A program made the position numbers and the translations under genes. 64,000 bases of DNA from Anaeromyces robustus (Eukaryota; Neocallimastigomycota; Neocallimastigomycetes; Neocallimastigales; Neocallimastigaceae), in the NCBI GenBank assembly GCA_002104895.1, contig MCFG01000215.1, forward strand, positions 5,001 to 69,000, given 5' to 3'. This document shows, in pieces, positions 2,076 through 35,837 of this stretch. The notes below the pieces were generated by a model. The model saw only the letters and a list, made by a program, of their open reading frames with translations, did not search any database and had not been told where the DNA came from. The first letter of the stretch is position 1, and every line of letters begins with the position of its first letter.

Positions 2076-6972
<4,897 letters not shown>

Positions 6973-22787: not shown

Positions 22788-24016
22788 TCATTTAACATTA
22801 AAAATAAGGTAAAGAAATAATTATACAAATATTAAATAATTATAATTGTAAAAGTATAAAAAGAATTAAAAATATCTATTATAAAAAGTAGACAAGAATT
22901 AAGTTCAAAAATATAATAAATGTAACGGATTGTTACAACACTATAATACTAATTAATATATATTTTTAATTTTTATTATTTATTTCTTATTTTGTTGTAA
23001 CACCAAGTTCAAGGGTTGGTGTGTTTATTAATTAAATTTTATTTAATTTTAATTTTTTATTAAAATAACAACTTAGTGATTTCCACTTTTACAGTGAAAA
23101 TCATTCTTATTTATACTAATTTTATTTAATTTTATTTTTAATAGAATATAATAGAATAAATTTAATAATCCAATCAATTTTAAAATTTAACTTAAATTAT
23201 TCCGTAAATTCAGTAAATAATTTAACCGAATAAATTTTATAATATCTAGATTATTCTCGAACTATCTAAATTTTTACATGTGACTTTTAATTTTTACATG
23301 TGACTTAAATTTTTTAACTAATTAATTAATAAAAATTTATTACTAAGTATATATATAAAGTATTAATAATAAAATAAAATAAAAATGTAATGATATGGAT
23401 CCATTATGGCTACTAATTAGGCTCAGTTCTACCTGCTTCTATTATTATGTTGGTTGTCTCTGGTTCGAACCTTACTCTTTACCTTTCGGAATAATATTAT
23501 TTATTTAATTAATAATAAATATATTCACTCAATTATTAGATAATAATTTACTTAAATTAATAATATGTATTCATTGAAATAAATTTATTTAAATATTAAT
23601 TTATTATTCACTTAATTAATATAATAATTTATCTAGTTCTTAATATTATATTTATTTAATTAAAATAATAATTAAATAATTATATAATTCTTATTTTAAA
23701 TAATTTGCCCAATCATGTAATAATTTAGAATAGATTTTTGAATATATAAATTCATGTATTTTATTTTATTTGACTCTTTGAGTCGATATTAACAATCAAT
23801 TAATAATAAATAAAATATAAATATCAACCATAAATAAATGAACAAATATATATTATATAAATGAATCTACTAATTAATTAAGTGAATAATCAATAGTGTT
23901 ATAAATAATTTAATATATTATATTATTATTTATTATTAATTTCCTACAATAACCTAGTGGTCACTCCAAATCTTTACAAAAAAATAAAACTATAATAGGA
24001 TGAATTATATTACAAT
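22788..24016. repeat. Dispersed repeat with tRNA-like head and GACTCTTTGAGTC core
   Basis: The core is about 23,397-23,985. It starts with a region holding a B-box-like GGTTCGAACC (about 23,464), has TGACTCTTTGAGTC near 23,771, and ends CCTACAATAACCTAGTGG. The reverse complement recurs at about 38,775-39,350, and partial copies at 12,661-13,110, 37,720-37,820 and 46,745-46,895. A tRNA-like promoter at one end and no coding capacity suggest a SINE-like element. The flanks (22,788-23,396) are AT-rich LTR-like debris beginning TGTAACGG at 22,921. Confidence 0.5.
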
Positions 24017-24617
24017 TGTAACGAAACTCAGAATTAGTAAAATAGTAACCATGGTCTAGTGGTCAGACACTAGAACCATCAGGCCGAACCTCTCGGGTTC
24101 GACTCTCACTCTTTCCAATTTTGGAAAAATTTTATTTTAAAAATTTATTATCAAAATTTTCTACACTTTTCCTTGTTGTAGAAATTACTCGAATTTAATC
24201 GATAAAATCTTATCGATTAAATTCTAAAAGATTCTAGTTTTTCTTTTTATTTTAAATTTTATTTATCCGAGATTCATTTTAAATCAAAAAATCTAAGTTT
24301 CTAGAACTTTTAATACTTTTTACAAACGAAAACTATTTTTCCGTAAAAAGTATAAATACGTGTAAAATTTCGACAAAAGAAATATTTTTTCTTCGCGTTT
24401 TTATTAACTAGTTAAATAAGTAATTCGAAATATTACACTAACTAATTAATAAATTATTATATTTTAAATTTAATAAAAATTAATAAAACATTTTATTATA
24501 AAACATATTTTTAATTAACTGTGTCTTTTATCTTTCTTAGATCTTTCGTGTTGTCCATTATTTCGAGTTACTCAAGCTTGCGGGCCTGTTGCTAATAAAC
24601 TCCACTCTATCATTACA
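24017..24617 (+). mobile_element. LTR-like repeat with tRNA-like block and TATA box
   Basis: It runs from TGTAACG to CATTACA, matching ends that are imperfect inverted repeats. It contains a tRNA-like block (24,040-24,118; GTCTAGTGGTCAG and GGGTTCGACTC) and a TATA box (tataaata at 24,351-24,358). A primer-binding site follows at 24,713. It is related in inverted orientation to 18,066-18,763. This is probably the 5' LTR of a retroelement whose leader and gag start follow before the virus block begins. Confidence 0.6.
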
Positions 24618-24977: not shown

Positions 24978-25121
24978 ATGGACTCTGAAAATATTTCACC
25001 CACTGTATTACCTAATACAGAAAACTCTTCCAATAGTGATGAAATCCTTCCAACTCCATCCACACCATTTACTCCTATTCCCCCAAGCCTGGAAAATTCT
25101 CTTTTTGCCTCGTCCCTTTAA
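24978..25121 (+). pseudogene. Start of a gag-like frame (retroelement fossil)
   Basis: A 47-codon frame begins MDSENISPTVLPNTE and is rich in Ser, Pro, Thr and Asn, as the first residues of Ty3-type Gag proteins often are. Its position after LTR, primer-binding site and leader fits gag. No further gag is seen: the sequence turns into the origin and Rep of virus block 1. It could instead be an unrelated small frame. Confidence 0.4.
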
Positions 25122-25137
25122 TTAATTAAAGAGTGTG

Positions 25138-25188
25138 CCGTAGCAATATATATAAATCTATATTGACCAATAGGATTCCGTAGCAATA
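25138..25188. repeat. Paired CCGTAGCAATA boxes next to origin A
   Basis: The 11-base word CCGTAGCAATA occurs at 25,138-25,148 and 25,178-25,188, exactly 40 bases apart and directly beside the stem-loop at 25,206. Direct repeats in this position in CRESS viruses (iterons) are bound by Rep. Function here is inferred from position. Confidence 0.6.
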
Positions 25189-25205
25189 CATTAATGTAGG
25201 GGAAA

Positions 25206-25250
25206 GGAAAAACAATTTCCGTAATACTAGGGGTTGGAAATTGTTTTTCC
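25206..25250 (-). promoter_or_regulatory. CRESS-type replication origin stem-loop A
   Basis: Perfect 15-bp arms (25,206-25,220 and 25,236-25,250) enclose a 15-base loop. On the minus strand the loop contains TAGTATTAC (25,221-25,229), the canonical nonanucleotide nicked by Rep in circoviruses and relatives. It lies 170 bases before the Rep start and next to paired iteron-like boxes. Confidence 0.85.
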
Positions 25251-25422
25251 CCATATATTAGAATGGTAATCAAATGAATTGACAATATAAAAAATCCAAA
25301 ACTTTTAATACGTTTGCCCTACGTAAATTAAATTAACGTATTAGACTTAATTTAATATAAAAACATACTTTTTTTTCTATTTTTTTTAAACTATAATTTT
25401 GAATATTTTTTAAAATATAATC

Positions 25423-27378
25423 ATGTCTCGTTATTACGCTTTTACTTTAAACGAATACACTGAGGAACAAGAACAAAAACTACAAGACTTAGCCAAAGAC
25501 ACAAAATTCATGCATCTTCTTTATGGTAGAGAAAAAGCTCCTACTACCGGCACAAAACACCTACAAGGCTGTTTCTGTTTAAAGAAGAAATCTAAACTAC
25601 AAGCAATTAAAAACTATATTGGTATTAACGAACTTCACTTAGAACCCTGTAAAAAGAATTATCAAGCAAATCTAAACTACTGTAAAAAATCAGGCGATAT
25701 TTGGCAATTCCCATTAGAGTTCATTAAAGACGACCCTCCAGAAAACAGAAAAACATATGCACAAGCAGTAGAGCTCGCAAAAGAAGGAAAATTTTCAGAA
25801 ATATCAGCTGAAAAATTACTCAAATATGAACATAAATTTAAAAAAATCTTTGTAGAAAACTTAGAATGTAATAACCTATATCTTACAAACGAATATGGTA
25901 ATTTCTTTCCCGACTTTAACTTACTAATGTATGGCCCAACAGGAACAGGTAAAAGTTACAGAATTGATGAACTTGTATTTATTTTAAATCAATTCTGGAA
26001 TGCTTACTGTAACCACAGAGATATTACATTTAAACCATTAAGAATGTACAGAAAATCCCGAAACAAGTGGTGGGATGACTACCAAGGCGAAGAAATTTGT
26101 ATTATAGAAGAACTTGAACCAAATTGGTGCCAACTTGCCGCTAGTAATTTAAAATTATGGCTTGACCAATACGTATTTAGTGGAGAAATAAAAGGCTCAA
26201 ACATAACCAAAATTAGACCAAAATTTTGGATACAAGTAATTATTCTCTAAAAGAACTATTTACCGATAAAACAGGGTTACTTATAAAACAAGATTACGAA
26301 CCAATACATAGAAGACTATGTGTTATTAAAATTAATAACATATACGAGGAAATAAATTGGCCAAGACTCGACAGATTATCATTATATTATGATACAATAA
26401 ATAGAGTTAGATCAAACATTGCTGAAAATTGGTACAATTCTTACTTAAAAAAAAAAAATACAATTCGACAACTATTTAGAAAATAATAATAACATACAAA
26501 TAAATAGTTATAAACCAATAATAAATGATATTGAAAATACAAGTCTAGAATGCAACCTTAGCGAACCACCAGCTGAACTATCAGACAATTCTAACTTAGA
26601 ACCAATATTACTTGATACAATAGAAGACGAAAATTATGAAACAGAATCAGAATGGCCAATATGCAAAATATGCGGCCAAAATGAAACATACAATTCCTAC
26701 GAAGAAAGATGCACAGAATGTACTAACAAAGGTCTAGTCTACAGACCTGATGTTGAACCAGCTTATAAGAACAACGAATACTTTGATAAACTTTTAGAAA
26801 GTGCATACAAAACTCAAGATGCACTCAAAGAACAAAAAAAATTTAACAAGGTTTACCATCTTAACGTAGTTACTGATTTTTTCTGGGATAAAAAAGATGA
26901 ATTAGAGGAATTAAACTTATACAAAATAATAATAAAAGACTTCAATTTAAAAATTAAAAATTCTAAAAGAAAAATTAGTTCAATTCAAAAAGAACTATCA
27001 AAATTAAGATTCAAGAAATCAAGTCTAGATGAAGGATACACATTCATTGATAATATGAATTGTGGTCCTTACGAAATACTTAAAGATTATAAAGAAAAGG
27101 CCAATATTCTAAGTGACATAATAATACAAATCGGTAACTGCAACGAATTAATAGAAAAATATGATAAAGATATTGAATCTGAATTAGGTTCAATATTATA
27201 TTACCATTCTATGATCAATAGATATACAATTAGATATCAAAACTTATTAATTAATTCTAATAAAAAATTAAATGAAGTTTATAAAAAAATTAATACTTTA
27301 GACGAAATATATTTGTTTATTTTCAGTCATTTTGTCCATAAAGAAATTTTAATGAATTTTTTGTTTATTTATATTTGA
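25423..27378 (+). pseudogene. CRESS-virus Rep-like gene (rep A, broken)
   Basis: Rep starts rolling-circle replication by nicking the origin and acts as a helicase. The N-terminal HUH nuclease has motif I FTLNEY (residues 7-12), motif II HLQG (46-49) and motif III with the catalytic Tyr86 in NYCKKSGD. A superfamily 3 helicase follows with Walker A GPTGTGKS (171-178) and a Walker B-like ICIIEEL. Beyond the helicase is an unusual long extension with a CKICG..CTEC zinc-finger-like pair and coiled-coil-rich sequence, much longer than ordinary Reps (about 300 residues). The gene is broken, with about two breaks. A TATA-like element lies near 25,356. It sits between two origin stem-loops. Closest family is Cressdnaviricota; I cannot place it in a named family. 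Confidence 0.85.
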
Positions 27379-27437
27379 CCCAATTTCTATGGAGGGGTCA
27401 GACCATATAATTAATTTTTAGATCCATAATATATGTA

Positions 27438-27445
27438 TCACGTGA
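27438..27445. promoter_or_regulatory. TCACGTGA palindrome, block 1
   Basis: An 8-base E-box-type palindrome in the rep-cap intergenic region of block 1. The CACGTG core recurs at 33,799-33,804 and 35,950-35,955 in the intergenic regions of block 2. bHLH factors (Cbf1/Pho4 type in fungi) bind CACGTG; use here is inferred. Confidence 0.45.
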
Positions 27446-27485
27446 TATTTGATTTATTTGATTATATTATTAATATATGATTCAA

Positions 27486-27528
27486 TTCAAAAGTTCCCAA
27501 TCTCTACAGTATTACGGGAACTTTTGAA
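27486..27528 (+). promoter_or_regulatory. CRESS-type replication origin stem-loop B
   Basis: Perfect 13-bp arms (27,486-27,498 and 27,516-27,528) enclose a 17-base loop ending CAGTATTAC (27,507-27,515), one base from the canonical TAGTATTAC. It lies between rep A and the capsid gene, the normal place for a CRESS origin, and reads in the opposite orientation to origin A. Confidence 0.85.
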
Positions 27529-27530
27529 CC

Positions 27531-27563
27531 CACTCTATAATAAATTTAATTTATTATAGAGTG
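27531..27563. repeat. Perfect 16-bp palindrome beside origin B
   Basis: Arms 27,531-27,546 and 27,548-27,563 (CACTCTATAATAAATT and its complement) are separated by one base and begin two bases after the origin stem. It could be a terminator, a second cruciform or a remnant of a rearranged origin. Confidence 0.7.
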
Positions 27564-27672
27564 ACTTAGTATTGTGCGTTGATTTTTATTGTTGTATTAG
27601 CACAATATATTTATTAAATGTAATTTAATTTATTTTTATTTAGTTATATTATTTTTTCAATTTCCGAAAAAG

Positions 27673-27680
27673 TATAAATA
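27673..27680 (+). promoter_or_regulatory. TATA box of the block 1 capsid gene
   Basis: tataaata within GAAAAAGTATAAATAGAG lies about 80 bases before the capsid ATG. Nearly the same context (AAAAAGTATAAATA) occurs in the neighbouring LTR-like repeats, so virus and retroelement promoters look alike. Confidence 0.6.
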
Positions 27681-27761
27681 GAGTTGAAATTCCGATTTTT
27701 TTAATTTATATTTATTTGGTTATATTATTTTTTTTTCAATTTTAATTAATATATATTTAGA

Positions 27762-28625
27762 ATGTATAGAAAAAGGTATTATAGAGGAAAAAATGTGAAT
27801 AGGGGTGGACAATTAGTGAAAAGAGCTAGAGGTAATGTAAGAGCTGCGAAGAAAGCTAATGATAGTACACAGTTTACAGTGAATTTCACTTATCCATTTG
27901 TATTAAGTGGAACAACAGTTTTAAATTATCATGCTGGTGTTGTTCCGTTAAATGTATGGGATTTATTATCAAGAGCACCAAATTTCCAAAATTTCAGAGC
28001 TATGTATGATCAATGTAGAATTGATTATGTGAAAGTAAAATTACAGGTTACAAATTCAACTTTACAAACAAATAATGCAAGTCAAACATATGATATTTAT
28101 ACTGCATGGGATAGAACTGGTGTTAGTTATCAAGATATTTATCCACATACTAACGAAGGTAAAATAGATGGTATATATTGTATTATAAATGATGCTATTC
28201 AAAATTACAGTGGTGTTTCAAAAATGCAATTAAATGTATTCCAAAAATGGAGACAAAATAAAAGTATATGGCCATCAACGTTACAAGAGAAAGCATAATA
28301 TGTTAGTACAAGTGAAGTGGAACAATGGAGAGGAGAATATAATACAGATTCGTTTTATTTCCCATTTAATCAAGACTTCGAACTTAAAACGACAGATGAT
28401 TTGAAATTATATTTAAATTCAAATAATCCTGGTATGTTTGTAGAAAACAATAAATATCCATTTAAACCAACATTATTAGTTGGTGCATTTACAACAGGAA
28501 TTAATTCACAAGGAAAAGCAGTATCAAATGTACCATTAACAAACAATACAAAAATTGTTATGACTGCAGAATTTTCAGTTGGAATGACTTTTAGAGCTTT
28601 GAAAGGAACTCCCGCTATTTCGTAA
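27762..28625 (+). pseudogene. Circovirus-like capsid gene (broken)
   Basis: The product starts with a Tyr/Arg/Lys-rich arm (MYRKRYYRGKNVNRGG, then KRARGNVRAAKK), as in CRESS capsid proteins that bind DNA and enter the nucleus. It continues with a beta-rich jelly-roll-like sequence. The segment FRAMYDQCRIDYVKVKLQV matches the conserved capsid pattern (aromatic, Tyr-x-x-x-Arg-Ile, then VKV) of circoviruses and relatives. It ends with a region containing VVPLTNNTKIVMTAEFSVG-like strands. The gene is broken in about one place. It follows origin B and a TATA box, in the same direction as rep A. Family assignment is by pattern, not by search. Confidence 0.75.
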
Positions 28626-28875
28626 GTTTAATATTATTAATTATATTTTAATTTATTTTATTTTTATTAATTATATTCTATTATTAGATAGAGATTTTAT
28701 AGCGAAAAACAGAACTTTAATTGAAGGTTTAGGATTAAAACAACATATTGATGATAGTTTTGAATATAAAGAGTTATCAGAATTTGTTAAATATACTAGA
28801 CCATATACAAATCCATTTGAACAAAATTATATAGTAGAAAAAAGAACAGTTTTTGTAGTTATAGGAAAAACCTAT

Positions 28876-30318
28876 ATGCAGAATGGTGGAGATTTAAAAC
28901 CGTCAACAAGATATTATTCATTTTATTATTTTGTAAATAATACTAATACAGATAGAACTTTAACTATTAATGGATCAGACTATCTGACAAGTGATGGTGA
29001 ATATATTGAATATTATTATAGCCATTTTGATGCAGTAATGATTACCGGAACAAATGAGTATTATTTAGATATTGGTAAATATAGTAGTAATGATATGGTA
29101 TTATTTAGTGAATATTTAGTACCATCATCAAAGTTAATGCAATTTAGAGAATTTATAGATGCTAGATATTATGAGTTATCTATATACCCAGATGATAAAA
29201 AACCAAACCCTTATCCAACTAACATCGAATTACAAGAAAAAGATTTATCAATTACATCAAATACAACAACTACTGTATTACCAGATATTAATATGGATTT
29301 TGATGGTTTGAGTAAAGTAACTGTTGTTACTAATGTTCAACCCAATTTAGAAAGTAAAAGTTTAACTGTAACCAGTAACGGCACCCAGACAATATCTGCA
29401 AGTTCTGGATATGACGGGTTAAGTAGTGTGGATTTAACAACTAATGTTCAACCCAATTTACAAATCGGGGATGTAAATTTTACAGTTAATGGTAATAAAG
29501 TGATTACACCAAGTAGTGGATATGATGGTATAGCTAAAGTAAATTGTACAGTAAATGTTCAACCCAATTTAGAAAGTAAAAGTTTAACAGTAACAAATAA
29601 TGGAACACAAACAATATCACCAAGTAGTGGATATGATGGTATTAGTAGTGTTAATTTAACAACTAATGTTCAAAGTACAGCAAATTTACAAACGAAAAAT
29701 ATGTCTATAACACACAATGGTTCAATGACTATAGTTCCAGATACAGGATACGACGGAATAAGTTCTTTACAACTTGGTGAAAGTGTACTTCCTAATTTAA
29801 CAAATGTTTCAGAAACTTATACTGCTAATGGTACTTACACAATACGATTAGAAACCACTGAGTATGATGGTATTGGAAGTGCTACAGTAAATGTGAATGT
29901 TCCTCAGACTGGTTTAAATACTATATTAAACAATTTTGCAGTGAGAAATAATAGCTTATCAATTAACACAGAAAGTGATTTAACTAAACATACTTCAACT
30001 GTTAATATTATTATTCCTGGTAATGGTGGTTATGTAATAGTAAAACCACCAGTTGGGGCATATACTTTTTATGAAATTATTTATTATGTTAATGTTACAA
30101 ATTCTACTTTTCAATTTCAAATGAGTGCAAGTACAGTTGCTCCTCTTTATGTATACAGTTATAATTCTGAAGCTAATAACCAGTTAATTATTAAAAATAA
30201 CTCTAATGAAAGTCTTTTTATAGTAGATAATACTAATTCACCTTCTGGTGGTACATTTAAAAAGTCGTCTGTTTTAATTTCTTCTAATTTATTTACAATT
30301 CCATTACCTACAAATTAA
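28876..30318 (+). CDS. Protein with phage-type GYDG repeats (fibre-like)
   Basis: A 480-residue frame; the open frame also extends upstream of the first Met. Residues ~1-115 are an aromatic-rich N-terminal domain. Six units of 37-39 residues follow (DNA about 29,230-29,915), each with a start like LESKSLTVT, a middle NGTQTI and a core SGYDGISSV. The C-terminal ~120 residues are a beta-rich domain. Similar LQ-K-VTP..GYDGLSSVTV repeats are common in tail and surface proteins of phages of gut Firmicutes. The role is therefore probably attachment or surface display, by analogy. It has no signal peptide or membrane segment. It follows the capsid gene on the same strand within virus block 1. I know of no standard CRESS protein like it. 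Confidence 0.65.
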   Translation: MQNGGDLKPSTRYYSFYYFVNNTNTDRTLTINGSDYLTSDGEYIEYYYSHFDAVMITGTNEYYLDIGKYSSNDMVLFSEYLVPSSKLMQFREFIDARYYELSIYPDDKKPNPYPTNIELQEKDLSITSNTTTTVLPDINMDFDGLSKVTVVTNVQPNLESKSLTVTSNGTQTISASSGYDGLSSVDLTTNVQPNLQIGDVNFTVNGNKVITPSSGYDGIAKVNCTVNVQPNLESKSLTVTNNGTQTISPSSGYDGISSVNLTTNVQSTANLQTKNMSITHNGSMTIVPDTGYDGISSLQLGESVLPNLTNVSETYTANGTYTIRLETTEYDGIGSATVNVNVPQTGLNTILNNFAVRNNSLSINTESDLTKHTSTVNIIIPGNGGYVIVKPPVGAYTFYEIIYYVNVTNSTFQFQMSASTVAPLYVYSYNSEANNQLIIKNNSNESLFIVDNTNSPSGGTFKKSSVLISSNLFTIPLPTN

Positions 30319-30369
30319 AATAATGAATGTATGATTAAATAATTTAATAAATAAAGGATAGTTAAAAAG

Positions 30370-30378
30370 TATATAAAG
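30370..30378 (+). promoter_or_regulatory. TATA box of the PPxY protein gene
   Basis: tatataaag lies about 60 bases before the ATG at 30,432, preceded by AATAAA words that could serve as the poly(A) signal of the upstream gene. Confidence 0.5.
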
Positions 30379-30431
30379 AGTGTTTTTAGTGTGTGTTTTT
30401 TTATTTTAGTGTTTTAATTTTAAATTTAAAA

Positions 30432-31337
30432 ATGAATAGAAATTATAGATATAATCGTGATACAGGTGAGTTTGAATTAATAAGAAATAATTCAAGAAGA
30501 GAATATTTTTCAAGTAGTCAGCCTACATTGAGAAGAGATAATTCACCACCACCGAGATATTATCCAGGTAGTGCACCACCACCGTATAGTGATATTAGTA
30601 GTAGAGGTAGATTACCAAGTTATTCACCGGGTTCTAATCCAGATAGATTTTTCAGCTTTACACGATCAGTGAGAACCCCGATAACAATTAGTTCAGGTAG
30701 TAATCGGGCTCATAGTTTAGATTCGATATCAGTTAATTCAAGTCAGTTATCATTTAATTCAAGAGGGAGAAGATATTTGAGAAGAGTTTTCGGACTTAAT
30801 AGCAACAGTTCAGCGATTACTATTCCTAGTAATGTAAGTGTTAATACAGATGATATTGATAGAACATATACTAATGAAGATGAATTTTTAGAAAATATAA
30901 GAAGACGAAGAGTTATAGAATATAATTGGAGATTTGGGAATATTAAGAAGATTAAAGTGGACGGAGAGGATGTATTGTTTGATTTGTATAGATATAAAAA
31001 TAGAAATTCTATTACTGTGAATAAATTTGTGTTATATTTTGATAAAAAGAAGAATTCAATTGGGATAAAATATAATAAAAGAATACCGACAAACAGTTTT
31101 GTTAGAGCTTTAATGCATTATAATAACATAGAACCAGTATTTGAAAAACGTAGATATTTTGTTTTAGATGTTTTAAACGATCCACCTTTTAATTTTAGTG
31201 GATGGAATGTTAAGATCTATAATAATACTAATAATTTAGTAAATAATTTTGTGTATACTAGTAATGATTGTAATGATAAAAGAGATAAATATGTAATTAT
31301 ACCAGATATAAGAATACCAAGAAGATTTAGAGAATAG
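30432..31337 (+). CDS. Unknown virus-block protein with two PPxY motifs
   Basis: 301 residues, starting MNRNYRYNRDTGEFELIRNN; an upstream in-frame ATG at 30,393 is less likely because it lies right after the TATA box. The N-terminal ~110 residues are Ser/Pro/Arg-rich and disordered. They contain PPRY and PPPY within SPPPRYYPGSAPPPYSDISS, the PPxY motif bound by WW domains of Nedd4/Rsp5 ubiquitin ligases and used as a late domain by some viruses. The C-terminal ~180 residues are Arg/Lys/Asn-rich with alternating hydrophobic residues (a beta-like fold) and end IPRRFRE. No family is recognised. Its place after capsid and fibre-like genes suggests a structural or exit role, which is inference. 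Confidence 0.6.
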   Translation: MNRNYRYNRDTGEFELIRNNSRREYFSSSQPTLRRDNSPPPRYYPGSAPPPYSDISSRGRLPSYSPGSNPDRFFSFTRSVRTPITISSGSNRAHSLDSISVNSSQLSFNSRGRRYLRRVFGLNSNSSAITIPSNVSVNTDDIDRTYTNEDEFLENIRRRRVIEYNWRFGNIKKIKVDGEDVLFDLYRYKNRNSITVNKFVLYFDKKKNSIGIKYNKRIPTNSFVRALMHYNNIEPVFEKRRYFVLDVLNDPPFNFSGWNVKIYNNTNNLVNNFVYTSNDCNDKRDKYVIIPDIRIPRRFRE

Positions 31338-31530
31338 TAAAAATTAGTGTTTGATTAGAATTTATGTGTTTAAATTCGCTTGTCATGTTAATAAATCTAT
31401 TGCATGACAGCCTACTATAATAAACTAAAGTGTCAATCTTGAGATCCAATGTGATGTTGGATTGATAGTGAAGACAAATTATCATCAAATAACTGAGGGT
31501 GATACCCGGAGTCGAACTCATGACAAGTAG
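31338..31530 (-). other. tRNA-like sequence between block 1 and its foldback end
   Basis: The minus strand contains GAGTTCGACTCC (about 31,506-31,517), a B-box-like word, followed by ATCACCC and TCA like a tRNA 3' end. I cannot fold a full cloverleaf. Its far side is the 22-bp hairpin, so it may be a damaged tRNA or tRNA-derived repeat. The rest of the interval is unremarkable. Confidence 0.35.
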
Positions 31531-31578
31531 GTCAGAGTCCAACAACCTGACGACTACGTCAGGTTGTTGGACTCTGAC
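31531..31578. repeat. Perfect 22-bp hairpin with 4-base loop
   Basis: Arms 31,531-31,552 and 31,557-31,578 pair perfectly around ACTA. The stem is unusually GC-rich for the region. It sits exactly at the axis-side edge of the inverted duplication, so it is probably part of the foldback event rather than a terminator. Confidence 0.85.
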
Positions 31579-31724
31579 AATCTTTTATTATATTTTATCC
31601 CAATTGAATTCTTCTTTTTATCAAAATATAACACAAATTTATTCACAGTAATAGAATTTTCAATGTATTTAACTAATAGTAATACATTGTTACAATATTA
31701 ATTTACAGAAATTCTTAGAATTCT

Positions 31725-32407
31725 AAAAATCTCAAAAAAGATTTAAAATTTACTTAAGATCTTAAATAATTAAAAATATCCCATTTTATCTATAATAATT
31801 AATTATACAGAAAAGATTATAAAAATCCAAAGATAAAAATAATTAATATATAGATAAATGATTAAATAGTATACTAAGCAATTAAATAATTAAATAGTTA
31901 ACTAGTTAGATAATTAGAATAGTTATAAATCTAAATCTTAGATTATAAATTCTTATCATTAAATTTATTAATAGTTTATATAGTTTTATATTAGTTTTAT
32001 ATAGTTAGATTTTTATCAATATTATTTTATTCATATATTTTATTTAAAATTATACATGTATAAATATATTATCAATAGATTATAATAATTAAATGTATTA
32101 ATAATTATTAGATTTAGAAAAAGTATAAATAAGGATTGAAATTACAATTCCTTTTAATCTTTGTAAGATTATTAACTAACTTAGAATTAACGACTTAATA
32201 ATCTAATTATTGTTTAAACTTTTCTTAATTAATTATTAATAAAAAATATTATTATAAAACTTAATTATTTTAAAAAAGTGTTCTTTTAATTAATTAATTA
32301 ATTTATTGTGTTATAAAAATTTGCCTATTAATTATATATTTGTTTAATTAGTTATTTTGTTATTAATTAAACATCTTGACCTGACCATTATTAAACCAAA
32401 ACTACCC
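31725..32407 (-). mobile_element. LTR-like direct repeat, copy 2 (probable 3' LTR)
   Basis: Near-identical to 22,111-22,787. On the minus strand it directly follows a Ty3 integrase tail and the purine-rich GTTAAGTGTGGGTAG, as a 3' LTR follows its polypurine tract. It is therefore the likely 3' LTR of the Ty3 element that holds virus block 2. TATATAAAAC is present on that strand. Confidence 0.6.
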
Positions 32408-32426
32408 ACACTTAACAAGGGTCCAT

Positions 32427-32603
32427 TTATTTAACAGTGTTAAAATTAATTCCAATTACTCTGTAAAGACCTGTGAAGTAAGGTTCTAATTTCAGGCGTG
32501 TGAAATTTCTTATTTTAACTAAATCACCCTTTTTAATTTGGTTTTGTTTGTTATTTTTATATAATTCGTTTCTTTCTTTTTCCCATCTTTTTGCTTTAGA
32601 TTT
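32427..32603 (-). pseudogene. Ty3 integrase C-terminal tail fused to rep C (fossil)
   Basis: The last ~58 residues of the open frame read SKAKRWEKERNELYKNN, then KKGDLVKIRNFTRLKLEPYF and TGLYRVIGINFNTVK. This is the Lys-rich helix plus GD-x-V and LEP-x-F-x-G-x-Y pattern of the Ty3/gypsy integrase C-terminal domain, not Rep. The matching integrase core is at 36,737-37,325 on the same strand, so virus block 2 lies inside that gene. Confidence 0.75.
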
Positions 32604-33659
32604 ATATTTGTCAGTCACTGTTACAATTTTCTGGCCTCCAACAAAACCTTTAAACCAGCGGAAGTCTTCCCAGTCAGTGAATACTACATCCTGGTCATCA
32701 AATACATTTAATTCGGAACCATCTATGATGTTATTCATATCCCATATATTGGGAAAATAAGAAATTAGTAAAAAAATTGAAGTAAATAAAATTGTTTTAC
32801 CTGATTGACTTAATCCAGTTACCCAAATACCTTTGGGTCTTTCAGTTTTTTCAGAAATTTTCCATTGTTCGAAATAATTAATCCAGTCTTTAATTTCCTT
32901 TGGTATGTAATATTTTAAATCAAAATTGGGAATAATTCTAGGTCTATTTTCCAAAGGAAATTCATTTTTAATGAAATAATTATAGTTTATATAATTACTA
33001 AAATATTCGTGGAACCATTCTTCATTATTTCTTAATCTATCCCTAACAATATCTTGAGTAGGTCTTGGTTCTTCATGTACCCATTCATAGAATGGAATAA
33101 TGACTCTTTCACGGCGTCCATGGTTAGCCCTGGCTTGTTCAGGGTGGAGATCCAACCATTCCTTCCAATCCCAATTACTAATAGGTTCAGTATCTTCTTT
33201 TGTAACATACTTAATCATCTTTCTTGTACCTTTAATACCTGGACCAAAATCTGGGTCTGATTTAAAACGGATATTGGGATGGATAGAATGGGATTCGTTA
33301 GTAAACCTTTCATCAACAACATCGAAACAACGAACATCTTCAGTAGAGTATGGTTTATCAAACCAAAGATAAGCATGAATATGATCATGCTCTCCATTTT
33401 CATGACTTCTTTCCTTAGACACAATATACTTTGTTCTTCTTTGTAATCCGTTGATCATTTCACCAACCATTTCTTTTGTTAGGATTTCATAAGTATCCGG
33501 GAAAGTTAAAAGTAATTCTTTCTTATTGTTGATGTACCAGCACCTTTTCTTGGATTTTTTGATCTTCTTCTCAGGAGAACCATTATCCTTGGAAACGGTA
33601 GCACAGTCCTTGGCAACAGCAGTAGCAACTTCTAAACAAGTAGCAGTTCTTTTGGCCAT
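32427..33659 (-). CDS. CRESS-virus Rep (rep C) with a chimeric 3' end
   Basis: A 410-residue open frame. After a Lys-rich, NLS-like N-terminus (KKIKKSKK at 31-38) come HUH motif I LLLTFP (49-54), motif II HDHIHAYLWF (91-100; His93 and His95) and motif III with Tyr151 in KYVTKED. The SF3 helicase has Walker A GLSQSGKT (282-289), Walker B-like VVFTDW and GGQKIVTVTDKY, a phrase typical of geminivirus/circovirus-type Reps. From about residue 353 the frame continues as Ty3 integrase tail, so the viral gene was cut by the integration junction. It is divergent from rep A and diverges from capsid C in orientation, with an origin between them. It reads open end to end, but it is an integrated fossil whose product is a chimera. 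Confidence 0.85.
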   Translation of the reverse strand: MAKRTATCLEVATAVAKDCATVSKDNGSPEKKIKKSKKRCWYINNKKELLLTFPDTYEILTKEMVGEMINGLQRRTKYIVSKERSHENGEHDHIHAYLWFDKPYSTEDVRCFDVVDERFTNESHSIHPNIRFKSDPDFGPGIKGTRKMIKYVTKEDTEPISNWDWKEWLDLHPEQARANHGRRERVIIPFYEWVHEEPRPTQDIVRDRLRNNEEWFHEYFSNYINYNYFIKNEFPLENRPRIIPNFDLKYYIPKEIKDWINYFEQWKISEKTERPKGIWVTGLSQSGKTILFTSIFLLISYFPNIWDMNNIIDGSELNVFDDQDVVFTDWEDFRWFKGFVGGQKIVTVTDKYKSKAKRWEKERNELYKNNKQNQIKKGDLVKIRNFTRLKLEPYFTGLYRVIGINFNTVK

Positions 33660-33709
33660 GTTATTAAAAAGTTTTATTAAAAAAGTATTTAAAATTTAAA
33701 ATAAAAAAA

Positions 33710-33755
33710 GTTTAACTCTCTGTAATGTTAATTATTATATTACAGAGAGTTAAAC
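33710..33755 (+). promoter_or_regulatory. CRESS-type replication origin stem-loop C
   Basis: Perfect 17-bp arms (33,710-33,726 and 33,739-33,755) surround a 12-base loop. TTATATTAC (33,735-33,743) runs from loop into stem and resembles the nonanucleotide (TAATATTAC/TAGTATTAC). It lies 51 bases upstream of the divergent rep C start and before capsid C, the canonical location. If the inner four pairs open, the nonanucleotide is wholly in the loop. Confidence 0.8.
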
Positions 33756-33797
33756 ATTAAGCGAAGCTTACTGTTTAAATACTTTTTTACAAAACAC

Positions 33798-33806
33798 ACA
33801 CGTGAC
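33798..33806. promoter_or_regulatory. CACGTG box, block 2 origin region
   Basis: ACACGTGAC between origin C and capsid C carries the same CACGTG core as 27,438 and 35,949. Confidence 0.4.
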
Positions 33807-34058
33807 ACGAATGGCTTCAAAATTATTTTTTTAAATTAAATTATTCATATGTTTATTGGTTCAAATTCCAATTTTTTTTTCAATCACCGCTGTGGCGACC
33901 AATAGGATTTTTTGTGGCGTAACTATTTATAGTAACTATTTTTTCATTTTTTTTTTCTTCTTTATATTTTTTAATTTCCAAAATTTCGATAGTTTGGATT
34001 ATATTAATTATATATTACTTATTATTTTACCTTTTATTATTAATAAAAATAGAAAAAC

Positions 34059-34577
34059 ATGGCCAAAACTACCACTAAAACTACTACTACCAGATCCGGA
34101 AGAAAAAACAAATACAACGTTCAAAATACCCCATTCAATGGAAAATTAAATAATCAAATAACTTATGGTAATGGAATGGATGCACCACATTATCATCAAT
34201 ATTCTACTACTGTTGTACCAGCTGTTACTACTGAAGGTGTAAGAAAGGCCGGAAAATTTACAGTTAACGTTTCTCTTGTTAGTAATGTTGAGGGTATTTT
34301 GTATTGGGCTTTAATTTATGTTCCTAAAGGATATACCGCTAGAAATTTCTTTGCTGAAGCAGACACACACCCACCACTTTATGAACCTGCAAATAATGTT
34401 TTAGCTTCCGGTATGAACGATACCAATGCAGGACCTGTAAGAATTTATTCACCATTATTCAAGAATTTAAATTCAGGTGATTCTATTGTATTCCAAGTTG
34501 CAGCACAAGATGAAAATGGAATTGATGCTAACACTAAAATTTCAGGTTTAATAAGATACGCTATATGTTATAATTAA
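34059..34577 (+). CDS. Small capsid protein (capsid C)
   Basis: 172 residues starting MAKTTTKTTTTRSGRKNK, a basic Thr/Lys/Arg arm expected to bind DNA inside the shell. A beta-rich single jelly-roll-like body follows. Diagnostic phrases are YEPANNVLASGMNDT, GPVRIYSPLFKNLNSGDSI and a final GLIRYAICYN. This NVL-SG / R-SPL-NLNSGDSI / RYA pattern is one I associate with capsid proteins of many uncultured CRESS viruses, including those of protists. It is much smaller than, and unlike, the block 1 capsid. A longer in-frame upstream overlap from another frame at 33,856 is a shadow. The gene looks whole. Confidence 0.7.
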   Translation: MAKTTTKTTTTRSGRKNKYNVQNTPFNGKLNNQITYGNGMDAPHYHQYSTTVVPAVTTEGVRKAGKFTVNVSLVSNVEGILYWALIYVPKGYTARNFFAEADTHPPLYEPANNVLASGMNDTNAGPVRIYSPLFKNLNSGDSIVFQVAAQDENGIDANTKISGLIRYAICYN

Positions 34578-34640
34578 TTTAATTGATTAATATAAGATAA
34601 ATTATGTAAAATTATATGTGATATGTATGGTATGATTATT

Positions 34641-34684
34641 AATAAATAAATAAATAAAGTTTATTTTTCAAAAAAATATAAATA
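34641..34684 (+). promoter_or_regulatory. Poly(A) signal plus TATA module, first copy
   Basis: AATAAATAAAGTTTATTTTT followed by a TATA box (tataaata at 34,677-34,684). Nearly the same ~40 bases recur at 35,262-35,303. It ends one gene and starts the next, about 70 bases before the following ATG. Confidence 0.65.
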
Positions 34685-34752
34685 CCAGTGTTTTCTTCAT
34701 ATTTTTGTGTTTATTTTTTTTTATTTTTATTTTATTTAATTTTATTTTTAAA

Positions 34753-35217
34753 ATGTCTATTCAAGCGAGAACAGATGGTTATATTTATAAAAGTGGTACA
34801 GCGACATCAACAGAATCGCAAAAATTTCAAAAGTTATTTCATAATTATTTGTACTTGAATGATTTATCAACAATAACTATAGATATTAAAGAAGTTCAGG
34901 TTCTATTTTCAATGACAAAGAGTAATGTAATTGATTATAATCAACCATATGTTTGGAGTATTCAAGCAATGCCTCTTGCTCAATGGAATAACCTTACTGA
35001 AACTCCATTAAACCATAATTTCCAACCCAATATGAAAGATAGTAAAATATGTGCTGTTGGTTTAGGTAATATAAATGGAAATAAATTCCAATTAGATAAT
35101 TGTAAATTAATACTACCACCAGGAAATGTATTAGCATTTATTATTGAGCCAGAGGATAAAACTACGGGTGCAACCTATTATACTGAAATCAATGTTATTT
35201 ATGATAATTATTGGTAA
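34753..35217 (+). CDS. Small virus-block protein, possible jelly-roll paralogue 1
   Basis: 154 residues from MSIQARTDGYIYKSGTATST; the upstream in-frame Met at 34,705 lies too close to the TATA box. It is beta-rich with no membrane segment. The end reads CKLILPPGNVLAFIIEPEDK, then TYYTEINVIYDNYW. This parallels the capsid C ending (NLNSGDSIVFQV..RYAICYN): small residue-Gly before a strand, an acidic loop, then a final strand ending in Tyr. The matching promoter modules support origin by tandem duplication, but direct similarity is weak. Possibly a minor capsid or surface protein. No family is recognised. Confidence 0.55.
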   Translation: MSIQARTDGYIYKSGTATSTESQKFQKLFHNYLYLNDLSTITIDIKEVQVLFSMTKSNVIDYNQPYVWSIQAMPLAQWNNLTETPLNHNFQPNMKDSKICAVGLGNINGNKFQLDNCKLILPPGNVLAFIIEPEDKTTGATYYTEINVIYDNYW

Positions 35218-35261
35218 AATAAAATAAATAAAATGTATTAATGAAAATTTAATTAATTAAA

Positions 35262-35303
35262 TTTAAAAATAAATAAAGTTTATTTTTAAAAAAAATATAA
35301 ATA
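35262..35303 (+). promoter_or_regulatory. Poly(A) signal plus TATA module, second copy
   Basis: AAATAAATAAAGTTTATTTTT and a TATA box (tataaata at 35,296-35,303), nearly identical to the module at 34,641-34,684 and at the same distance (about 70 bases) from the next ATG. Confidence 0.65.
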
Positions 35304-35369
35304 TGTGTGAATTTTTATTTTATTTTATTATTTTTGTGTTTTTTCCTTTTTATTTATCGAAATTTTCAA

Positions 35370-35837
35370 ATGGTTAATTTAACAAATAGAACATTATTAA
35401 AAAGATATCATTACGAAATAATTTTACCTAACGATATCGAACCAAACAGTATTTATGCGGTTAGGGACTGGGTAATAGGGGTAAACAATATAGGTTTAAA
35501 AATTAAACTAAAAAATATCCAATTTAAGAGTATAAGAACAACCTCTACAACCCCACCTTATGATCCACCACTTCTTGTATATTTTAAAATTGTAAGAAGT
35601 GGCTATCATAATTCTCCTTTAGCATTTTTAATGTTAAACCAAACAATTGATACAATTCCGTATGCTTTTTTATATGATGGATTTGATTCTATTAGAAAAT
35701 ATACAATTAACAAAGAAATTGTATTAAATAACGGTGATGCATTATACATAGTACTCAAAAGTTTAGAAGATAATGTTTATATTCCTACTACAGATTCTTT
35801 TCACATTTTAGTAGAAGAAGAGATATCATACCTTTAA
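35370..35837 (+). CDS. Small virus-block protein, possible jelly-roll paralogue 2
   Basis: 155 residues from MVNLTNRTLLKRYHYEIILP; the earlier Met at 35,307 lies right after the TATA box and is unlikely. The protein is beta-rich. Near its end it reads NKEIVLNNGDALYIVLKSLE and then a strand closing with EEEISYL. This again gives the L-x-x-GD-x-L-x-hydrophobic pattern seen at the end of capsid C and of the preceding protein. No known domain or membrane segment is present. Position, promoter module and shape suggest the third of three related small proteins, perhaps structural. Confidence 0.55.
   Translation: MVNLTNRTLLKRYHYEIILPNDIEPNSIYAVRDWVIGVNNIGLKIKLKNIQFKSIRTTSTTPPYDPPLLVYFKIVRSGYHNSPLAFLMLNQTIDTIPYAFLYDGFDSIRKYTINKEIVLNNGDALYIVLKSLEDNVYIPTTDSFHILVEEEISYL

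Follow-up and report, generated by a model that had tools for sequence, protein, structure and literature searches.

A likely composite endogenous viral element from a proposed large circo-like CRESS lineage in the anaerobic gut fungus Anaeromyces robustus

Within a 64-kb window of the genome of the neocallimastigomycete Anaeromyces robustus, we analysed a block of virus-like genes that an initial annotation, made from the letters alone, had placed at 25122–31680 and attributed to a large virus of the circular Rep-encoding single-stranded DNA (CRESS) type in a gut fungus. The window, that is, the whole stretch of DNA under study, corresponds to positions 5001–69000 of contig C130, and the genome searched for related copies comprised 70.2 Mb in 769 contigs. 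The annotated host proved correct, protein identities pointing to A. robustus; the annotated extent was close, with viral similarity (blastn against the fetched loci) spanning 25112–31489 and a host repeat beginning at 31490. The block encodes a circovirus-type replication-associated protein (Rep) with HUH endonuclease and superfamily 3 (SF3) helicase domains, a capsid of circo-like type that is rich in arginine, a fibre-like protein with many repeats and a protein carrying PPxY motifs (Table 1), and host genes around it encode Sec23 and CotH domains in the window. It looks like two decayed modules, one made of a first origin and a Rep of about 650 codons in broken frames, the other of a second origin with the capsid, fibre-like and PPxY genes.

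Table 1 Features of the virus-like block and its surroundings, in window positions.
Feature	Position	Strand	Basis
Host repeat, left of the block	24015..24518	no strand	blastn; similar stretches beside viral pieces on C249, C459 and C364 and near C130:84.1 kb
Pair of TTGCTACGG iteron-like repeats (25138-25146, 25178-25186) at a spacing of 40 nt, next to origin 1	25138..25186	-	same pair and spacing in C388; putative function
Origin 1: 15-bp stem, TAGTATTAC in loop; closest to the C388 copy	25206..25250	-	hairpin scan, alignment
Rep, comprising the HUH endonuclease and an SF3 helicase lacking motif C, up to the frame break	25423..26247	+	Pfam PF02407, PF00910
Second Rep frame, holding motif C (TSNYS) and the remaining helicase	26217..26483	+	tblastn, collinear with Rep of sister copies
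Rep C-terminal extension, frame shifted again; zinc-ribbon-like CxxC...CxxC, coiled-coil-like by eye	26449..27375	+	fused to Rep in C388 and C249
Origin 2: 13-bp stem, CAGTATTAC; inner stem shared with the C222 copy	27486..27528	+	hairpin scan, alignment
Circovirus-like capsid gene, Arg-rich N terminus, in-frame stop at 28296-28298	27762..28622	+	sub-threshold Circo_capsid match; alignment to C222 and C114
Fibre-like frame, 571 codons stop to stop, 37-aa repeats	28603..30315	+	open reading frame, repeat and homology searches
PPxY protein, 301 aa; N-terminal PPRY, PPPY and LPSY; C-terminal part without assignment	30432..31337	+	open reading frame and protein search
Host repeat of 73 bp, directly where viral similarity ends	31490..31562	no strand	repeat search (25 rows, including 2 from the window)
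Inverted duplicate (79 nt) of 31004-31082 in the PPxY gene	31581..31659	-	inverted repeat I1, 100%
LTR-like repeat between the block and a second viral block	31695..32417	-	97% and 90% copies at C130:78.6-79.3 kb and on C295; long terminal repeat (LTR) call by eye

The first Rep frame matched Viral_Rep (39.5 bits, cut-off 26) and RNA_helicase (28.7 bits, cut-off 21.5), and thus carries above cut-off both the HUH endonuclease and the SF3 helicase that define a Rep of Cressdnaviricota. Gemini_AL1 was absent from the Pfam matches of this Rep, Viral_Rep standing in its place, so that the protein is not of the Genomoviridae or geminivirus-like type. A profile built from nine relatives matched Rep structures in the PDB, the best being 7lar (E = 2.1e-20). 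Together, the three window frames cover 1953 nucleotides (nt), a capacity of about 651 codons; long relatives from assemblies measure 650 (P0127), 661 (P0132) and 638 (P0135) amino acids (aa). On contig C388 all three parts are joined in one 552-codon frame, and the 5′-truncated copy on C249 carries Rep and extension in one 384-codon frame. Because these two sister copies hold both parts in a single frame, the region between Rep and capsid, on which the initial annotation was silent, is identified as a long C-terminal extension of Rep; the same fusion excluded 26449–27375 as a separate gene. The ratio of nonsynonymous to synonymous substitution rates (dN/dS) between the window and C388 was 0.11 for Rep and 0.14 for the extension, with a dS of about 2, near saturation, and both therefore look like real coding sequence. 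The extension contains stops in the C625 and C459 copies. Of the 64 Rep relatives, 10 carry a CxxC...CxC or CxxC motif, two of these ten being A. robustus models.

Hairpins, defined as a perfect stem of at least 9 bp around NANTATTAC, were found at only two positions in the window, and both lie in the block, as in the hairpin origins of CRESS viruses. By chance, such hairpins appeared in none of 30 Markov simulations of the window and at a mean of 0.01 (maximum 1) in 200 simulations of the block. Origin 1 adjoins Rep and has its nonanucleotide on the strand opposite Rep, the same arrangement as in the C388 and C222 copies, and its alignment with the C388 origin extends across 118 columns, the TTGCTACGG pair included. 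Origin 2 sits upstream of the capsid gene and lacks this pair. Given the differing hairpin stems and neighbouring repeats, the block is probably composite, its rep half and its cap half probably being derived from two different viruses of the group.

The capsid-like gene is interrupted, and its first piece (27762–28295) scored 22.9 bits against Circo_capsid (E = 1.2e-4), below the cut-off of 36.2; this family was nevertheless the best Pfam match of all three capsid copies (window, C222 and C114). The open capsid stretches of C222 (331 aa) and C114 (339 aa) align with both window pieces taken separately. We hold the capsid assignment with moderate confidence. The C114 locus (L011, 113739–117152) holds a circo-like capsid gene with an open frame, after which come a 300-aa open reading frame (ORF) and a divergent 267-aa ORF. 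Neither of these two ORFs matched the fibre or PPxY query, and by its gene content the locus is perhaps a different gene set within the same virus group.

The fibre-like frame is built around a repeat unit of 111 nt, and its first ATG, at 28876, lies past the first conserved residues and leaves 480 codons. A protein search returned 270 matches, including phage tail proteins, which carry the same repeat in other genomes; the figures that follow come from the best 120 of the 270. These proteins differ from the fibre in that the similarity is mostly near or in the repeats (for 106 of the 120, the best alignment does not begin before residue 150) and in that fold agreement is low. Of the matches listed, 117 have a contig size, and 40 of these are carried by contigs of at least 10 kb. 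P0013 matches fibre residues 51–521 and lies on a 6274-nt contig, P0014 matches residues 78–566 and lies on a 6053-nt contig, and P0009, P0016, P0040 and others among the matches listed give weaker alignments that begin before residue 100. The structure model of the fibre reached a mean predicted local distance difference test (pLDDT) score of 50, with some repeats above 70. Foldseek searches of this model at E ≤ 0.001 gave no match in the PDB and one in BFVD, a phage tail protein (E = 2.4e-4); four of the six best BFVD fold matches are named phage tail protein, with low template modelling (TM) scores of about 0.1.

A search with the PPxY protein gave three matches, namely the window's own protein, a second A. 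robustus protein and P0002, encoded on a 1945-nt assembly contig and identical to the copy at C130:76.5 kb. Because this third match is the C130 copy, the protein is known only from A. robustus. All three distinct copies retain PPPY and LPSY, and two of them retain PPRY. The gene shows a dN/dS of 0.28 relative to the copy at C130:76.5 kb, and its structure model has a mean pLDDT of 38. WW-domain ligases bind motifs of the PPxY/LPxY type. A terminal LPGY motif, a possible WW-domain ligand, was also seen in P0153–P0155, the Reps of one subclade.

Genes of the block recur on ten contigs at E ≤ 1e-3 (C130, C388, C625, C222, C459, C249, C632, C114, C243 and C364), with weaker matches on C469 and C298, and C130 itself carries further viral pieces at 74.2–78.5 and 81.8–84.1 kb. 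The A. robustus Rep copies are 45–69% identical to the window Rep; those of C222 and C625 share 98% protein identity, with a dN/dS of 0.04. We placed them in a Rep tree of 67 rows, built by a quick method with Shimodaira–Hasegawa-like approximate likelihood ratio test (SH-aLRT) support only and leaving out P0124–P0126 and P0146 (public models of A. robustus copies), the second C625 Rep piece and the C632 fragment. The tree revealed a clade of 43 Reps, comprising 7 from A. robustus, 1 from Neocallimastix californiae and 35 from ENA/Logan/JGI assemblies, with an SH-aLRT of 94, just short of the 95 that the tool takes as its mark. Within this clade the seven A. robustus Reps occupy three separate positions, where the window groups with C388, C625 with C222 and C459 with C249, and the ENA/Logan/JGI Reps are at most 81% identical to any of them. 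The low dN/dS values suggest that the copies diverged largely as working genes, which argues for several integrations rather than copying within the genome, and the sequences fit repeated integration of circulating viruses. On C222, cap and rep diverge around one hairpin, and on C459 and C249 the PPxY or fibre gene converges with the rep half; these layouts together suggest an ambisense parent genome. At C388:10222–13270 (L003 and L002), two Rep modules stand head to tail and almost without a gap (12153/12158); they share 87% protein identity at saturated dS and form a second array of pieces from different viruses.

Among the 35 ENA/Logan/JGI Reps of the clade, 14 lie on contigs of 5.0–8.0 kb and none on longer ones, as expected of small replicons; examples are Reps of 560 aa on 6167 nt, 569 aa on 7182 nt, 556 aa on 7104 nt and 454 aa on 7350 nt. 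Two of the Rep contigs equal fibre contigs in size, at 7104 nt (P0143/P0116) and 7350 nt (P0154/P0036), which is no more than suggestive of Rep and fibre lying on one contig.

We consider it likely that the block is a dead endogenous viral element of A. robustus, probably composite, derived from two members of one undescribed, large (about 6–8 kb) circo-like CRESS lineage. Its viral genes lie within host sequence, with host repeats at or near both edges, and its frames are decayed, as seen in the broken Rep, the capsid stop and the stops of sister copies. Position 31489 is the shared stop of similarity between the window and two other copies, and the host repeat starts there. The block is a real, informative set of viral fossils. 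The CRESS origin claimed by the initial annotation is borne out by Rep domains above the Pfam cut-offs and by the hairpins, and the gene set that it listed is present, with the capsid-like gene recognized by a sub-threshold Circo_capsid match. Its picture of one large, fairly complete viral genome at 25.1–31.7 kb gives way to a pseudogenised, composite-looking block, and a single intact 6.5-kb provirus is excluded by the broken rep and cap, the differing hairpins of the two halves and the same-strand order. The undescribed virus group that it suspected is probable in view of the 43-row Rep clade and of fibre relatives on 6.0- and 6.3-kb contigs, and we found no paper on this group in the open-licence literature, outside which it may be described. 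A bacterial mobile element, named at the outset as the contrary outcome, was searched for, and no match came up in the collections scanned. A Rep profile scan found no relatives in GTDB contigs, one long Rep matched none of 50,697 phage records, another matched none of 72,556 plasmid records, and two fibre relatives had no match in phages. PHROGs and NCBIfam searches gave only matches at E of about 0.02 or worse.

Several observations weigh against the composite element from an undescribed lineage. All three capsid copies tested stay below the Circo_capsid cut-off of 36.2 (22.9, 22.4 and 15.7 bits), a capsid profile matched no chain in the PDB, and A. robustus is the only known source of the PPxY protein. 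Origin 2 scores equally against origin 1 and against the C222 hairpin (35 each, 0/300 shuffles); with this tie, the case for a composite structure comes down to the absence of the repeat pair from origin 2, the unlike stems and the order of the two halves on one strand, and that order fits a two-segment virus too. A hairpin is present in only 3 of 21 other loci, at two places (C388 and C222). The ENA/Logan/JGI assemblies that yielded the Reps could include fungal genomes. Across 59 Rep contigs and 117 fibre contigs (the latter from the matches listed), with A. robustus and N. californiae contigs left out, the chance of two size coincidences is 0.02 when the 19 Rep contigs of at least 4 kb are used but 0.15 when all 59 are. 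Finally, scans of IMG/VR for an exogenous relative found none by Rep (four scans) or by the PPxY protein (one scan), and the three scans by fibre gave one match only, on a 175-kb contig (L049).

The two modules would also be accounted for by a bipartite virus, with origin 1 and Rep on one segment, origin 2, capsid, fibre and PPxY genes on the other, and one of each in the block. Segments of multipartite viruses usually share a Rep-binding origin, and this counts against such a virus here, because the origin stems differ and the repeat pair beside origin 1 has no counterpart at origin 2, although the two origins do align (score 35, 0/300 shuffles). In its favour, both modules run along the plus strand, each from a hairpin of its own to a point close to where its last gene stops, and multipartite single-stranded DNA (ssDNA) mycoviruses are published, with three DNA components in excerpts of PMC10224137 and tetra-segmented ones in a literature listing. 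On C222, however, cap and rep diverge around a single hairpin, on C459 and C249 Rep is convergent with PPxY or fibre, and 14 of the 35 long ENA/Logan/JGI Reps lie on contigs of 5.0–8.0 kb, so that we regard a bipartite virus as unlikely. Co-option by the fungus, in which the fibre and PPxY frames were kept open while rep and cap decayed, would fit the open frames (571 codons stop to stop, or 480 from the first ATG, in the fibre and 301 in the PPxY gene), the existence of public gene models and the dN/dS of 0.28–0.52 for these genes. Yet no ATG precedes the conserved fibre start, sister copies are truncated or stop-bearing, and a dN/dS below 1 may stem from the viral phase. Of the public models, that of Rep lacks motif C and that of capsid and fibre fuses what is a separate protein in P0013 and P0014, and we find co-option quite improbable.

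A self-mobilising, virus-derived transposon spreading within the genome could have left copies on ten contigs, and geminivirus-like transposable elements are known in a truffle (PMC3198968, in excerpt). The Rep copies, however, are 45–69% identical to that of the window, with high dS, low dN/dS and many broken frames; they occupy three places in the tree with ENA/Logan/JGI Reps between them, and no common ends were seen except at 31489. Such a transposon is very unlikely. The idea of an assembly artefact or contaminant join, which earns almost no credence from us, is opposed by a retroelement Pol fused to a neighbouring viral Rep and by a host repeat directly at the right edge. A contaminant join in particular appears unlikely from the sequence context, because related pieces recur on ten contigs and fungal repeats stand beside several of them.

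Beyond the dead element itself, these broken remains of unusually large ssDNA viruses point to a little-known virus group that, to judge from its genomic fossils, infects or infected gut fungi. From integrated copies and protein records, we predict for the living virus behind the element a circular, ambisense genome of about 6–8 kb. Its long Rep would nick the NANTATTAC loop and start rolling-circle replication, and the capsid, fibre-like and PPxY genes would be read from the origin in the direction opposite Rep. The fibre would probably mediate attachment, and the PPxY/LPxY protein would probably recruit a ubiquitin ligase of the Nedd4/Rsp5 type for entry or exit. We tentatively propose further, as a possibility that we hold somewhat less probable than its contrary, a family-level CRESS lineage of 6–8 kb, ambisense and infecting anaerobic gut fungi. 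Its circo-like capsid would be decorated with a fibre that acquired its repeats from gut phages or bacteria, its Rep would bear a zinc-ribbon/coiled-coil tail, and some members would have a PPxY protein hijacking the fungal Rsp5 ligase. If true, this would add a fibre-bearing CRESS virus and tie a DNA virus lineage to Neocallimastigomycota through genomic fossils. Gut fungi help herbivores to break down plant fibre, and little is known of their DNA viruses; through the fossils, a host phylum can be linked to a set of ENA/Logan/JGI Reps. A further suggestion from them is that large size and a circo-like capsid can go together in a CRESS virus with a fibre bearing phage-tail-type repeats, a suggested and now testable case of gene flow between phages or bacteria and a eukaryotic ssDNA virus.

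Members of Circoviridae have a Rep of about 300 aa and a genome of about 2 kb with only rep and cap. The block resembles them in its Viral_Rep and RNA_helicase Rep, its TAGTATTAC-type hairpin and its arginine-rich capsid with a weak Circo_capsid match. It differs in the Rep extension, giving about 540–660 aa in the nearest open relatives, in the additional fibre and PPxY genes, in a Circo_capsid score short of the cut-off and in an estimated size of 6–8 kb, related Reps lying on contigs of up to 8.0 kb; the small genome of rep and cap only is thus not what was found. For comparison with larger and with fungal elements we used excerpts of two papers, PMC7000223 (Tisza et al. 2020) and PMC3198968 (Liu et al. 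2011). According to the PMC7000223 excerpt, nearly all reported CRESS genomes are below 3.5 kb, and eight exceed 6 kb in the set described there. The large CRESS viruses of that set, the bacilladnaviruses and the cruciviruses share with the proposed lineage a genome above the usual 3.5 kb. The PMC7000223 viruses are set apart by description, those in the excerpt having RNA-virus-like, repeated satellite tobacco necrosis virus (STNV)-like or inovirus-like capsid genes and no circo-like capsid with a phage-tail-like repeat fibre.

Integration of ssDNA-virus genes into fungal genomes is itself known, with geminivirus-like Reps, nearest to SsHADV-1, reported in ascomycetes and a basidiomycete in 2011, and a table of 302 Rep and 3 capsid sequences across all hosts (PMC3198968, in excerpt). 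Unlike those geminivirus-like insertions, the present block combines a circo-type Rep with a capsid and two more genes, in Neocallimastigomycota. Early-diverging fungi have also yielded ssDNA-virus sequences, namely Gigaspora circovirus A, for which only a Rep is reported, and, from the gut fungus Pecoramyces, a gemycircularvirus, as given in excerpts of PMC9501391 and of its review PMC10224137; the Pecoramyces virus is set apart by its description as a gemycircularvirus in these excerpts. A term search of the texts of two studies of CRESS hosts from genomic fossils (PMC7493932 and PMC10193959) found no mention of Anaeromyces, Neocallimastix or Piromyces, and a rumen virome study excluded mycoviruses from its identification and host-prediction analysis, as stated in the excerpt of PMC10465536. 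The combination of host, long Rep and fibre appears new.

The repeat at the right edge of the block has 23 matches elsewhere in the genome and is part of a longer repeat in two further loci (L051 and L053); neither ARAGORN nor Rfam found a tRNA at this edge, despite the tRNA-like look of 31490–31562. Beyond the LTR-like repeat, a different CRESS block occupies 32427–35837, with a minus-strand Rep of the Gemini_AL1 type (39.2 bits, cut-off 24) and three plus-strand ORFs of 172, 154 and 155 aa without Pfam matches. An ambisense relative of this second block, with Rep and the first two ORFs, is found on C295. The final 60 residues of the second-block Rep frame (32427–32610) resemble retrotransposon Pol, by eye and by their repetition; most of the 43 rows of a search with this Rep match the Pol-like end, and a retroelement seems to be fused to the viral gene. 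Altogether, C130:30–84 kb contains three blocks of the group described here and one of another within 54 kb, a possible integration hot spot.

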